Assembly (NCBI RefSeq): GCF_028826105.1
Contig: NZ_JAQGPL010000001.1
Span: forward strand, 4,490,501 to 4,554,500
Reading direction: 5' to 3'
Length of the DNA stretch: 64,000 nt
From: Paenibacillus humicola
Lineage (GTDB): Bacteria; Bacillota; Bacilli; Paenibacillales; Paenibacillaceae
Every line of letters begins with the position of its first letter. Position 1 is the first letter of the stretch. The translations under genes were made by a program, and so were the position numbers. This document shows, in pieces, positions 14,705-20,279 of this stretch. A model generated the notes under the pieces. The model worked only from the letters and a program-made list of their open reading frames with translations, ran no database searches and was not told the DNA's origin.

Positions 14705-15052
14705 TTAGGCGCCAAATGCAATGCGGTAACCGTTATTGTCGAGAATGGTCATTTCGCTCCAGGTATCGGACCAATGAGGACCTTTCACGATTGTTATGCC
14801 GCTGGACCGGACCAGCTCATATAATTGTTTCAGTCCCTCGGGGGTCATGTAGCAAAAGGCATCAAAATATAGCCCGCCTCCAACGGATGAATAGGGGCGT
14901 ACATCGTGTGGTTGTTTTGCCGGATGCAGAATGAATGTCGCGGCCCCTAGAGACATGTGGACATGCCCGCCGATTTCCTCCGATGCGAAACCTAATGTTT
15001 CATAAAACGCTACGGATTCCTGTACATCGGCAGCCAGCAGAACCACCGACAT
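14705..15052 (-). CDS. VOC-superfamily protein (glyoxalase/bleomycin-resistance fold)
   Basis: This 115-residue single-domain VOC protein begins SVVLLAADVQESVAFYETLGF and ends with EMTILDNNGYRIAFGA, the two characteristic halves. VOC proteins bind a metal or small ligand and cover dioxygenases, isomerases and resistance proteins. The ATG at 15052 has no ribosome site at normal distance. An ATG at 15087 with GAGGGG before it opens 11 sensible codons in another frame, so a one-base frameshift near the start is possible and the gene may be damaged. Confidence 0.7.
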   Translation of the reverse strand: MSVVLLAADVQESVAFYETLGFASEEIGGHVHMSLGAATFILHPAKQPHDVRPYSSVGGGLYFDAFCYMTPEGLKQLYELVRSSGITIVKGPHWSDTWSEMTILDNNGYRIAFGA

Positions 15053-15149: not shown

Positions 15150-17612
15150 CTATTCCAAACGATTCAACAGCGCGCGGTAAGACTCGATGGCGGCGATTTC
15201 ATGCTTCCGCGCTAGGCGCAGCAGATCGGCTCCTGCATAACGCCTTTCCGTATCGGGAATCGGGCCAAACGGCTGCATCCAAGGGAACATCTCATACAGC
15301 TTCGCATAAACGCTTTGCAGCCGTTCCGCTTCGCGGATGGCCGTATCGAACGTTTCGTTCAGCCGCGCGTTTCCGATTTTGCGTTTTCCTTCGCGAAGAA
15401 ATTCCAGCGCCAGCTTGCGGCACTCCTGCCAGCCGTTTGCATACAATCCCAAATACCAGCCGTCCACCGTACCCTTTTCAAGGGCGCGGATGAAGTGGTC
15501 GTAAGCCTGAATTCCCGTGTATAAACCGGGCTGCGCCCACGGACCCTCCGGGTCGGCAAACGCGACGGCAAACTGCAGCGTGTCGCGGATAATCGTCCGG
15601 TCATCGGCCGGGGCGGCAGGTTTGGCCCAATACAACCGGACCTCGCCTTCCCGCTGGGGCTCCATTGCCGGTCCGTTCGCAGCCGTTCTTTGACAGGCAT
15701 CGCAAAGGCATACCGACTTGACGGGACTTTCCAATCTGTCTTCACGACGCGTCGTACATAGATAACACATGCACTGCCCCAAACCGTACATATTCCATGG
15801 GATGGCTTTCCGGGAAGGGCCATGCCAGCCATGCGTGTAATACCCGTCCTGATCATACCCAATAATCAATGCGTATTCGCCGCGGTCGAAGTCGATCGAG
15901 CGGCCAAAGCACGCCCAGCCTTCGTTTATCGCCTTTCGCGCTTCATTCCAGGCCGTTTGCAGCAGATTTCGATATTCGTTTTCTGTTCCGCTCCCTTCCA
16001 CGCTGCCAATATCCAGGCCGACATTCGCGAACAACTGAACAAACCGATCGTCCGGAATCGGCAAACAAATATCGTGGACGTTGATTCGTTCATGAACCGC
16101 GAAGGCGAACGGACGGCCGCTCGCCCCAAGCAGCCACGCCTCCGAACCTGGAATCCGGTAATAATCGGCTACACCTTTCAACGTATTGTGCTGCGAAATA
16201 CAGCTGGTTCCCCAGTATCGAAGCCCTTCCAGCCGCTTCGCACCGGCAAGCGCTTCTGCGATTTCGCCCAATACCCGCGATCCTTCCGTTTCCGCCGCAA
16301 TCGCTTTTGCCGCAAAAGAACCCGCTTCGCTATCGTGACGGTCAAAACGTTCGGCAGCTTGTTCCCACAAGGCTCCGGCCTCATCATAGGAAGACACAGC
16401 CGCTTCAAGCTTTGCGGAAAGCGCGAATCCGGCGGCATCCCGGCAGTCCCGCACATATCGGGCGGCCCTCTTCCTGCGTTCCGCCAGCTCTCCTGCCCGC
16501 CGGTAAAACGCTGCCGCTTCCGATTCCCGAGGCTCAGACAGCCATTCGGAATGAAAGGTTGGACCGTGCATCCTTCCGCTCTCCGCAGCGAATTGAAACG
16601 ACTGCATCGTTCTCGTTCGCAAAGACTCCTCGGCTCCCGGGCTGACGGCAAATACACGATCCGCCTCGCCGGGGACTGTCGCTCGTACGGTCCCGTCCGC
16701 GAACGAAAGCTGCAGCCGGTCTTCATCCATGCCGATTACGGCCGCGTAACCGTCTTCCCCGCCGAACCGGCCGAACACGGCATCCTGCGCGTCAAGCGCT
16801 TCCCCGATCAAGCCGAATATATCCCTTCCGCCGCCTTCTGCGGGCACCAACCGCCGGCATTCCAAACCGAAAGCCTTGATCCGTCCCCAAATCTCTCCTC
16901 CTGCTTCGCCATGTTCAGCCTCGCGGGGGGAAAGGGACTGGAACCAATAGCCGATGCCTCCCAAGAATCCTATTTCGTCTGCATACCGGTTGCAATATCG
17001 CATTGCGCCCAGTAAACACCCGATAAGAGCGTCCGGATGTGAAATCGCGCGATAACCCGTTCCCGGGGCTTCATCCGTCCCGCGATGTTCCGCGATGTGG
17101 AGCGATCCGACCGAAAGATTGGCGCGCCAGCCGGTCCGAACGCCTATTTTTCCCTGCAGCCCGCGATAATTGCCATCCAGCGAAAACCGCTCCTCCCCAT
17201 TAACCAGCAGGCGCATCCGATCTTCCGCAATCATCCATTCGAGGCGGTGCCAGCGGCCGGCAGGAACGTCGCCTTTTCCGGTCAATTCGAAGGCTTGCCC
17301 CGTCGCGGGGTGACGCACATGAAGCAGATCTTCCCTGCGGTCCCAGTTAAGTATAACTTCCCCCTTGGCATACTCCAGTACAATATTGGTGCTGTCGGTC
17401 ATGACGATTGCTTCCACGGACAGCGGCGTCCGGTATTCGCCTTCCGTTCTTGCCGGGTGGATGCCGAATGAATCCGTGAACTGCATTCCTTCCGGTATTT
17501 GCACGGGCCTGCTTCCGGGAATGGCAACCAATCGATCGACGATTCTCCCATGGCTGTAAACCGGGATCGAGATCACCTGTTCCGTATGGTTTGAGAGCTC
17601 CGAGAGGCTCAT
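15150..17612 (-). CDS. 820-residue protein: LamG-like domain, two C39/BtrH-like modules and a six-cysteine cluster
   Basis: I know no named family for the whole protein. About residues 115-175 resemble a LamG/glucanase-like sandwich (AGRWHRLEWMIAEDRMRLLV, GLQGKIGVRT). Two modules resemble the cysteine-peptidase-like BtrH N-terminal domain: one near 195-330 (IGCLLGAMRYC, then YAAVIGMDEDRLQLSF), one near 462-600 (YWGTSCISQHNTLKG, then EYALIIGYDQDGYYTHG). Between 614 and 640 lie CMCYLC and CLCDAC, six cysteines as two CxCxxC groups, a likely metal site. Near 696-740 GLYTGIQAYDHF matches GYVTGLTAYEAW of the upstream sigma protein. The start has AAGGAG and lies 14 bases after the sigma stop, so they are one operon. 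No signal peptide; cytoplasmic. Confidence 0.65.
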   Translation of the reverse strand: MSLSELSNHTEQVISIPVYSHGRIVDRLVAIPGSRPVQIPEGMQFTDSFGIHPARTEGEYRTPLSVEAIVMTDSTNIVLEYAKGEVILNWDRREDLLHVRHPATGQAFELTGKGDVPAGRWHRLEWMIAEDRMRLLVNGEERFSLDGNYRGLQGKIGVRTGWRANLSVGSLHIAEHRGTDEAPGTGYRAISHPDALIGCLLGAMRYCNRYADEIGFLGGIGYWFQSLSPREAEHGEAGGEIWGRIKAFGLECRRLVPAEGGGRDIFGLIGEALDAQDAVFGRFGGEDGYAAVIGMDEDRLQLSFADGTVRATVPGEADRVFAVSPGAEESLRTRTMQSFQFAAESGRMHGPTFHSEWLSEPRESEAAAFYRRAGELAERRKRAARYVRDCRDAAGFALSAKLEAAVSSYDEAGALWEQAAERFDRHDSEAGSFAAKAIAAETEGSRVLGEIAEALAGAKRLEGLRYWGTSCISQHNTLKGVADYYRIPGSEAWLLGASGRPFAFAVHERINVHDICLPIPDDRFVQLFANVGLDIGSVEGSGTENEYRNLLQTAWNEARKAINEGWACFGRSIDFDRGEYALIIGYDQDGYYTHGWHGPSRKAIPWNMYGLGQCMCYLCTTRREDRLESPVKSVCLCDACQRTAANGPAMEPQREGEVRLYWAKPAAPADDRTIIRDTLQFAVAFADPEGPWAQPGLYTGIQAYDHFIRALEKGTVDGWYLGLYANGWQECRKLALEFLREGKRKIGNARLNETFDTAIREAERLQSVYAKLYEMFPWMQPFGPIPDTERRYAGADLLRLARKHEIAAIESYRALLNRLE

Positions 17613-17626
17613 TTCCGATTTCTCCT

Positions 17627-19300
17627 TCAGGACCGGCGGGCCAGACGTTCCAGCGTTTCGAGACCCGCCTCCTCACAATTTTTGATTTCCAGGAGCAGCG
17701 TTTCGGCCTCCAGCCGGTTCTTGCGGTTCAACGGGTCTCCTCCGGAAGGAAAAGGAAACTTTACGGCAAGCTTGGCCAGTGCATGTACCGCGGCATAGTA
17801 GTGCCCTTCCGCTTCGAAAGCGAGCCTTGCTCGTTCGACCTCCAGCTTCCTGCTCAAGCCCCTTAAAAATCGGACCGCATGCTCCCGCGCATGCAGGACG
17901 ACGCGAAGGGAGTATGCCTGGCCGATCGGGTCGACGGCCCCGTTTCGGATGGAATCGCGCCACGCCTCATAAGCGGTCAGCCCCGTCACGTATCCCGGAA
18001 AAGTCCGCTCGCCATAAGCCGCGGCCAACACGCCGGCGAATAAATCCGGCACCGCATCCTGAGGCGACTTTGCGTTTTGTGCGAGAGGGTTCACAGCCAT
18101 TACGAACAGTCCCCCGTCCTTACCGCGGCCAAGCTTGTCGTACGCCAGCTTTATGGCACCCGCGTTCGGCGCGTCAGCGGAAAACGAAAGCTGCTCGTCG
18201 TCATAGCCGTACAGCAACCCGAATTCCGGTCCGTTCAAATCCCAGGCTGCGACCGGTGTACCTGCAGCGATCGACCTCCTGGCGAGCATGACGGCCTCGC
18301 CCAAAGCATGGGCGGAAGGTTCGATGCCCCCATCGCCGGCATGCGTCATTTGCAAGCCCAGGCGCTTCAGTCCCGCTTCCAGAACAGGCTCCCAGAAATA
18401 CATGGAAGGCCCGGATACATCGATTCGTTCACGCTCCAGGCTGATCCGGAAAGCATATCCGGTCCAGCCCATCACATCCGAAAGGCTGCAGGCGGCATGC
18501 CCCTTGAACTGTAAAATCCGGTGGATGCAGGTCGCGATCGAACAAGCCGTTGACTGCCGGGCGTCCGCCCCGGTACGCAGCGGCAGCATCACCTTTGCCC
18601 GGCGTTCGCCACCGCCGCCCGCGTCGTCCAGCCGATCCCGCAAATCGCTGCGCACCCGCTCCCTTTTCATTTTTGTTTTCAATCTGGATAACGATTTGTA
18701 CACATTTCCTTCGGTCATGCCGAGCAGTCCCGCGATTTCGTGCGGTGTCAGCTGGCTTAGAAAGTGAGCCTCGAACAGGTCCCTCTCCCGCTGCGAGAGG
18801 GTGTGGAGCATGCTCCGCAGCGCTTCATAAAATTCTTTTTTCATCAGCTCGGCTTCCGGCGCGGCCTTTTCATTACGGTTCCGCGCAGGAGTCAAACGAA
18901 ATAAGAGGTCATCGAGACCGCTCCAATCGAGCCCCGTATCCCCGTAAGCTCCTGTTTGGCCGGCGATGGCGGTAAACGTCGATTCTCGCGACAACCGCAC
19001 GTCTTTCCTGCGTTTCATCAGCGCCTGATTTCGAACGATCCGGTTTAACCAAGGGAGGAACCGGCCGGGATCCGACAGCCTGTTCATATACAGGAACGCC
19101 TGAACCAGCGCTTCCTGCACGACATCCTCGGCATCAGACCGGTCATGGACGATACGCTTGGCCACGCCGAGCATTCTTGCCCGATGCAGGGTCACCAGCT
19201 CGCCGAACGCTTCCGAATCGCCAAGGCGTGCGCGATCCGCCAGCGATTTCAGCGCAGCCGAGTCGTCGTAATTGCCGAAGAACGGCTCCTGCTCCTGCAC
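17627..19300 (-). CDS. ECF sigma factor with a C-terminal C39/BtrH-like domain
   Basis: At 557 residues this is three times the normal length. Region 2 spans about 33-100 (RIVHDRSDAEDVVQEALVQA, then WLNRIVRNQALMKRRK) and region 4 about 155-212 (SQRERDLFEAHFLSQLTPHE, EGNVYKSLSRLKTKMKRER). From about 245 to 405 a domain like the neighbour's modules follows: TACSIATCIHRILQFKGHAA, ending PEFGLLYGYDDEQLSF. Then GYVTGLTAYEAWRDSIRNG (436-454) has a counterpart in the 820-residue protein. The extension may sense a ligand and control the sigma domains, as SnoaL does in ECF41. No anti-sigma gene is adjacent. Start is GTG with AAGGAGGG. Its target promoters are unknown. Confidence 0.78.
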   Translation of the reverse strand: MQEQEPFFGNYDDSAALKSLADRARLGDSEAFGELVTLHRARMLGVAKRIVHDRSDAEDVVQEALVQAFLYMNRLSDPGRFLPWLNRIVRNQALMKRRKDVRLSRESTFTAIAGQTGAYGDTGLDWSGLDDLLFRLTPARNRNEKAAPEAELMKKEFYEALRSMLHTLSQRERDLFEAHFLSQLTPHEIAGLLGMTEGNVYKSLSRLKTKMKRERVRSDLRDRLDDAGGGGERRAKVMLPLRTGADARQSTACSIATCIHRILQFKGHAACSLSDVMGWTGYAFRISLERERIDVSGPSMYFWEPVLEAGLKRLGLQMTHAGDGGIEPSAHALGEAVMLARRSIAAGTPVAAWDLNGPEFGLLYGYDDEQLSFSADAPNAGAIKLAYDKLGRGKDGGLFVMAVNPLAQNAKSPQDAVPDLFAGVLAAAYGERTFPGYVTGLTAYEAWRDSIRNGAVDPIGQAYSLRVVLHAREHAVRFLRGLSRKLEVERARLAFEAEGHYYAAVHALAKLAVKFPFPSGGDPLNRKNRLEAETLLLEIKNCEEAGLETLERLARRS

Positions 19301-19452
19301 GAAACAACCCTCCTTATCATCCGCCTATCCGGTTTGATGCTCTTGATCTTCATTTTTGGACATCGGACGGCGGATTTCAAGAAAAATCATTTCCCAACCG
19401 CCTCAACGCCGAAAAGTAGTATGTCCCGAAACGCGAAAGCGGCCATTAAAAT

Positions 19453-19523: not shown

Positions 19524-20279
19524 TCAATTGTTTATTTCCCATGCAATCGTCAACGCCCCCTGCGCATGGTCGCCGGTAACGACGATTCGTACGGCGGACG
19601 GTTTCTTCACCCGGTAGGTGATGCTGCCTTGTTCGGCATCCGTATACGTTCCGTCTTTGGCGTCCAGGTACGTGCCGTAGCCGCCGCTGCTGATCTGCCA
19701 GTCGATCCGATAGGATAACGTCTGACCCGCTTCGAGCTCGACCGGTATCTCTTTCTTCCCGTTAAAATAACCGAATTCCGCGTGATAGCCCTCAGCGGTT
19801 CTGTTCTCTTTCCACTGTTTCGTGACGGTGAAATCGACGGTGGAAACGCAGACGGCCCCGGCAAACAGCAGTATGGCTGCGGCAGCGCTGTAAGGCCACC
19901 TGAAGTGGAACAGACGGTCCACGGCGAGAAAAACAAGTGCGCAGACCGCGCCGCAGCCGCCGGCAATCATGCTTAACGCCCATTGGCCCGGAAACCAGAT
20001 CAGAAAAGGGACATAACCGCCGAGCATATAAAGCAGGACGATAAGCGCAATTTTGGAGGCTCCGGCCTTAAGCTTGCAGAGCGCCGCGTCCACTGAGGCA
20101 GAGAATAGGACGGCGTAACCATAGATATACTCCCACAGCGGGAGCTCCCGTGTCAGCTCGGACATCCGGTAGCCGTCAAAATCGGCTGCTATAACCAGGA
20201 ACCCCATAAATACGAGCCCTGCAGCCATCAGTTTTGATGCTGCATAAGCGGTAATCCGAACCCGTTTGGACGCGGCCAC
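19524..20279 (-). CDS. Membrane protein of unknown function
   Basis: This 251-residue protein has about five hydrophobic helices in its first 150 residues (for example LMAAGLVFMGFLVIAADF and IALIVLLYMLGGYVPFLIWF) and a C-terminal soluble domain of short strands ending AVRIVVTGDHAQGALTIAWE, probably outside the cell. I recognise no family. It starts at GTG with a GGGGAG ribosome site. Although it precedes the fused sigma gene on the same strand, a terminator lies between. It may be a Paenibacillus-restricted protein. Confidence 0.6.
   Translation of the reverse strand: MAASKRVRITAYAASKLMAAGLVFMGFLVIAADFDGYRMSELTRELPLWEYIYGYAVLFSASVDAALCKLKAGASKIALIVLLYMLGGYVPFLIWFPGQWALSMIAGGCGAVCALVFLAVDRLFHFRWPYSAAAAILLFAGAVCVSTVDFTVTKQWKENRTAEGYHAEFGYFNGKKEIPVELEAGQTLSYRIDWQISSGGYGTYLDAKDGTYTDAEQGSITYRVKKPSAVRIVVTGDHAQGALTIAWEINN

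Follow-up and report, generated by a model that had tools for sequence, protein, structure and literature searches.

An ECF sigma factor of Paenibacillus humicola fused to an apparently inactive BtrH-type domain, a candidate intracellular sensor

Anti-sigma factors keep most extracytoplasmic function (ECF) sigma factors in check, and the switching of anti-sigma-free ECFs with extensions is largely open. Among the described systems, ECF41 (Ecf41Bli, SigJ) is reported in PMC3426412 to use the promoter TGTCACA-n16-CGTC and to have essentially one target operon, and the groups presented in PMC8999054 include further anti-sigma-free ECFs with regulatory extensions, namely ECF42 (TPR), ECF56/205/294/295 (SnoaL) and ECF238 (Cys-rich). 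Here we describe P0001, a gene from a 64,000-nt stretch of Paenibacillus humicola DNA (contig NZ_JAQGPL010000001.1, positions 4,490,501 to 4,554,500; the whole stretch is called the window below), in which an ECF sigma factor is fused to a C-terminal domain, termed EXT, with the fold of BtrH-type enzymes.

P0001 (557 aa, minus strand, 17627..19300; open reading frame and Pfam) begins with a GTG codon, 7 nt upstream of which lies AAGGAGGG, and its frame runs unbroken from 19300 down to 17627 without an internal stop. Sigma region 2 (residues 35–100; 19001..19198, minus strand; PF04542, Sigma70_r2, E 3.6e-13) and region 4 (residues 159–211; 18668..18826, minus strand; PF08281, Sigma70_r4_2, E 4.4e-10) are both above the Pfam cut-off, region 2 matches the fold of sigma-E, AlgU and SigW in a structure search, and the general ECF family TIGR02937 matches the protein at 92.6 bits (NCBIfam). 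Regions 2 and 4 are found and regions 1 and 3 are absent from the Pfam matches, as in an ECF (group IV) sigma factor. Residues 216–557 match no Pfam family above the cut-off. Neither the SnoaL-like domain that is the hallmark of ECF41 nor the TPR repeats of ECF42 have a Pfam match in P0001; the whole extension instead aligns with a different fold, that of AziU3, CtaG and CcbD. The original prediction, an ECF sigma factor with regions 2 and 4 fused to a BtrH/C39-like fold, is thus borne out by Pfam, structure search and profile comparison; no stop separates the two parts, which form one protein. It had also claimed that no anti-sigma gene is near, and Pfam matched no anti-sigma family in the two scanned neighbours (P0002 and 19524-20279 of the window). 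None occurs among the next-gene families listed for the relatives described below (25 of 54, so that single unlisted cases are possible).

EXT covers residues ~252–553 (~300 aa; 17642..18547, minus strand); it follows the sigma half, as predicted, but its span is longer than the proposed residues 245–480. Structure search with an AlphaFold model matched EXT to AziU3, CtaG and CcbD over its whole length, including the C-terminal helical part, and profile comparison agrees with a BtrH-type fold, so that searches able to refute the proposed fold supported it. Judged by profile and modelled structure, EXT is homologous to BtrH_N (PF14399). AziU3, CtaG and CcbD are enzymes of antibiotic assembly, and their fold is that of amide-forming enzymes. 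Direct sequence matches to known families are near nil: BtrH_N has no Pfam match among 42 EXT domains and none in the P. humicola genome, which carries four EXT genes; the 42 domains gave one C39_2 match (6e-4) and one weak C70 match; C39_2 matches L062 at 0.0023; and no BtrH-type relative came out when PDB sequences were searched with a profile (best E 0.11). The fold assignment therefore rests on structure and profile-profile comparison.

The catalytic columns were located in an alignment of 182 EXT rows (including genes fetched twice; 164 distinct), to which 22 BtrH_N proteins were added as a reference. In P0001 the catalytic Cys of BtrH aligns with Ser254 (codon 18539..18541, minus strand) and the catalytic His with Glu359 (codon 18224..18226, minus strand). 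Among the 164 distinct EXT sequences the Cys column holds Ser in 110 and Thr in 36 (146 together) and Cys in none, and the His column holds Glu in 146 and His in none; the picture is the same across all 182 rows. In the reference proteins Cys stands at the catalytic column in 14 of 22, and His at either of the adjacent columns 359 and 360 in 12 of 22. Over these two columns three distinct EXT sequences have His, and seven further ones have it one column earlier. Some Cys falls within columns 252–257 in 19 of the 182 rows, P0001 included (Cys253), and never at 254; an Asp near the expected third position of the triad is common (122 of 182 rows). The motif TACSIATC, originally read as that of a cysteine peptidase, thus has its Cys off the conserved position, and P0001 is probably not a working peptidase. 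With neither the catalytic Cys nor the catalytic His at the aligned columns, EXT is apparently a pseudo-enzyme, and a working C39 peptidase or BtrH-type enzyme was rejected as the main reading (both residues are absent in 164/164 distinct sequences). To judge from these sequences, the most likely function of EXT is that of a sensor.

EXT relatives are encoded in 231 stretches of GTDB genomes, and all linkage counts below refer to the best 80 of these by similarity to the EXT of P0001. These loci come from genera such as Paenibacillus, Cohnella, Brevibacillus and Evansella, all of which we take to be Bacilli. The architecture of P0001 recurs in 36 of the 80 loci, 16 of them with a further EXT gene next, and an isolated or artefactual fusion was accordingly rejected; in the fusion of Paenibacillus allorhizosphaerae EXT is 67% identical to that of P0001. 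At 42 loci a separate sigma gene lies directly upstream of EXT (at L143 in two pieces), at one directly downstream, and at one in neither place. Sigma-EXT is therefore a family whose nearest relatives have the two parts fused or in neighbouring genes at roughly the same frequency, which implies that control within a single polypeptide is not the sole mode. The P. humicola genome itself has, besides P0001, a second fusion (C1:155888) and a split pair (C1:246012 / 246775). Of 59 relative genomes searched (P. humicola included), 30 carry EXT, with up to ten matches per genome (one gene can yield more than one match). A phylum sample of 299 genomes yielded EXT in 15, among them P. humicola and one member of its family. 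In a quick tree with several long branches, the 79 family sigmas form one clade against seven other ECFs (SH-aLRT 97). The fused/split label switches seven times on the best sigma tree and three times on the EXT tree, and the well-supported branches alone require just one switch.

EXT is also found with WYL regulators (Pfam-confirmed): it is fused to one at L220:858-2786 (minus strand), and WYL regulators are encoded beside it at L079, L081 and L083, which indicates that sigma factors are not its only partners. Elsewhere it stands behind a lectin-like domain (L072, L082) or within triple sigma-EXT-VOC fusions of 835–853 aa (L061, L062, L064, L070; Pfam-confirmed). Two loci may be decayed copies or sequencing errors: L143:7298-7911, where the sigma gene in two pieces also lacks the promoter motif, and L065:9513-11251, where the fusion is broken into two frames. 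L032, in the P. humicola genome, was rejected as a further family sigma, as no EXT was found there. Mobile-element cargo was likewise rejected, since two scans of viral contigs gave no relative; the matches in five phage records are confined to the sigma half, and relatives are present in one Paenibacillus plasmid record of 2.7 Mb.

Upstream of P0001, 32 bp before its start, lies TGTCCAAAA-N13-GCATCAAA (19333-19362), comprising a predicted -35 element (19354..19362, minus strand) and a predicted -10 element (19333..19340, minus strand), both assigned by the family motif and spaced as TGTCCAA-n16-CATC. Among the spaced word pairs in front of the 79 sigma genes, the most frequent is present at 21 of them, compared with at most six in each of ten shuffled sets, and its refinement gave the family motif TGTcAGAaaT ... 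GGCATCtAT, with the spacing TGTCAGA-n16-CATC. The motif scores above 12 upstream of 75 of the 79 family sigmas, the same upstream regions on which it was trained, and 99% of shuffles score below 10.4; when a tenth of the regions at a time was left out, the same site was recovered in 73 of 76. We infer from sequence that the motif is a promoter. In the P. humicola genome the P0001 site is the only perfect match, and a wide regulon was rejected on this ground; 19 sites occur at three or fewer mismatches (10 for the reversed pattern). The site of the split paralogue has 28 sites at two or fewer mismatches, 27 of them with exactly two (reversed pattern, 3), and these 27 may include weak extra targets. 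The sites of the two other family sigmas of this genome have no second copy in it at 0 or 1 mismatch. Since the genome patterns were written from the sites themselves, the lack of further copies is the sole informative point of these searches.

With the spacer allowed to vary by +/-1, divergent VOC or solute-binding genes by the triple fusions (L061, L062, L064, L070) carry the motif as well. A strong motif also precedes a gene for a 321-aa polymerase-beta-type nucleotidyltransferase (L043:15220, minus strand) and, in two related loci, a GMC-oxidoreductase gene (L087:6217, minus strand; L088:13492); these genes are possible targets outside the operon.

The genes downstream of P0001 lie, like it, on the minus strand. 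P0002 (820 aa; 15150..17612), 14 bp after P0001, encodes a lectin-like domain, a degenerate EXT and a second EXT. The latter contains a Cys-rich loop, CxCxxC...CxCxxC (15693..15773, minus strand), which is a possible metal site; of 10 aligned proteins (the window included), all have its first motif and 8 have its second. P0002 is followed after 97 bp by a gene for a 115-aa VOC protein (glyoxalase/bleomycin-resistance fold; 14705..15052; PF00903, E 2.1e-5), likely the third gene of the P0001 operon. VOC is the commonest next gene of the sigma-EXT family; VOC, GyrI-like and leaderless solute-binding proteins, all small-molecule binders, are the frequent next-gene types. Solute-binding-protein folds without a hydrophobic leader directly follow sigma-EXT genes at L055:14022-15134, L073:7493-8644, L074:136-1254, L075:8047-9180, L078:7736-8986 and L084:9887-11002; these are apparently cytosolic sensors or ligand traps.

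The best explanation overall, which we hold to be reasonably probable, is that P0001 is a self-contained cytosolic ECF without an anti-sigma factor, in which EXT is a ligand sensor and which activates its own operon. A small molecule would bind EXT in the old active-site cleft, and the ligand-bound domain would free or block the sigma domains, the sequence being compatible with either direction; at split loci EXT would act on sigma in trans, as a separate protein. The active sigma factor would bind the promoter-like site just upstream and raise expression of its own operon, yielding more sensor-sigma, P0002 with its lectin-like domain and two EXT modules, and the VOC protein, of which the latter two probably bind or clear the same ligand. 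Computation supports the architecture, the fold, the loss of the catalytic pair, the family linkage, the conserved promoter-like motif and the types of partner; ligand binding, the direction of control and the role of the partners are what we infer. Because of the relatives of the fold and the VOC and GyrI-like partners, we would guess that the ligands are antibiotic-like or sugar-containing natural products.

Several observations weigh against this explanation. A lost active site is no proof of a sensor, and EXT could be a structural or docking module. As the best 80 of 231 loci were chosen by EXT similarity, they exaggerate how closely the domain family as a whole is linked to sigma: EXT proteins without a nearby sigma are encoded at L072, L076, L077 and L079-L083, and none of eight loci examined from 13 distant genomes has a sigma gene within flanks of 1.5 kb. 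The distances of sigma and EXT are correlated (r 0.64 for all 79 and 0.80 for the 42 split pairs, values that none of 999 permutations reached), but this agreement is partly shared species history. In another set of loci together with the window, drawn partly from the genomes of the training set, the motif exceeds 12 upstream of only 26 of 51 family sigma genes (other genes, 12 of 907). The structure model of P0002 was built on 10 sequences and has a pTM of 0.49.

EXT might alternatively be a built-in anti-sigma factor whose inhibition is lifted by proteolysis or by a protein partner, P0002 for example, and not by a small ligand bound in its cleft. Inhibitory or cleaved extensions have precedents in ECF41, ECF52 and IutY, as presented in PMC8999054, and P0002, with its further EXT modules and lectin-like domain, could compete for sigma. 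We consider this unlikely, if worth keeping in mind: EXT is also a separate gene beside sigma in 43 of the 80 loci, and the EXT-WYL fusion at L220 is more in keeping with a transferable sensor than with an inhibitor specific to sigma.

That EXT has remained an enzyme, with Ser/Thr and Glu replacing Cys and His and a sigma half that couples its production to need, seems quite improbable to us. The replacing residues show conservation of their own (146 of the 164 distinct sequences for either column), the frequent Asp near the third triad place would suit such an enzyme, and the related enzymes of this fold form amides; however, neither residue is, to our knowledge, a usual replacement in the C39/BtrH superfamily, and an enzyme joined to a sigma factor or a WYL regulator would be unusual. 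Nor are carrier-protein substrates evident nearby, a simple pattern for carrier-protein motifs being matched by only 6 of 2537 neighbouring genes. This count also speaks against the idea that EXT binds acyl or peptidyl carrier proteins and so monitors how a non-ribosomal peptide synthetase or polyketide synthase line stands. Its structural relative CcbD was solved in complex with a carrier-protein domain, according to entry 9dkr, but the next genes often encode small-molecule binders instead, and we give this idea very little credence.

Returning to the ligand-sensing sigma factor, we see about an even chance that P0001 represents a widespread and hitherto unrecognised class of one-component sigmas of Bacilli, in which an emptied enzyme fold of antibiotic assembly serves as a transferable intracellular small-molecule sensor that works with sigma and WYL proteins, either in cis or in trans, and with interchangeable ligand-binding partners (VOC, GyrI-like, leaderless solute-binding and lectin-EXT). 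The family offers a fold with solved relatives, a predicted promoter, natural fused and split versions for comparison, and several copies per genome, presumably with different ligands. Should these turn out to be antibiotics or further natural products, the family could supply biosensors and hint at the way in which Bacilli perceive neighbouring organisms.

According to PMC8999054, ECFs that combine a regulatory extension with the lack of an anti-sigma factor are a known kind; P0001 would resemble ECF42, ECF56/205/294/295 and ECF238 in this respect and differs from them in the fold of the extension. A BtrH- or C39-like extension is not named among the ECF groups in section 3.5 and the tables of that review, and the titles and abstract openings of the literature searched, which left the 2021 ECF classification outside its scope, mention no sigma factor with such a domain; the use of a BtrH-type dead enzyme as a sensor, its action in cis and in trans, and the set of partners are likewise absent from these sources. 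The family may already be numbered in that classification (Casas-Pastor 2021), ECF264 (type member from Saccharibacillus sacchari; Table 2 of PMC8999054) being one unconfirmed candidate. As in ECF41, in the account cited at the outset, a C-terminal domain is fused to an ECF sigma factor, here apparently without an anti-sigma gene and with essentially one predicted target operon. The predicted promoter has the n16 spacing and the TGTC start of the ECF41 promoter (TGTCCAA/CATC in the window and TGTcAGA/CATC in the family, versus TGTCACA/CGTC). In ECF41, however, the domain is SnoaL-like and the target is a neighbouring COE gene (e.g. of carboxymuconolactone decarboxylase type), whereas here the domain is an apparently dead BtrH-type domain of ~300 aa, often in trans, and the partners are VOC, GyrI-like, solute-binding or lectin-EXT proteins. 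By this analogy P0001 would be a self-activating, anti-sigma-free switch in the style of ECF41 with a new kind of sensor, its ligand and gating being presumed. With BtrH_N/BtrH, CcbD, CtaG and AziU3, EXT shares the fold over its whole length; unlike these enzymes, it has no Pfam BtrH_N match, lacks the catalytic Cys and His, and is linked to transcription factors.
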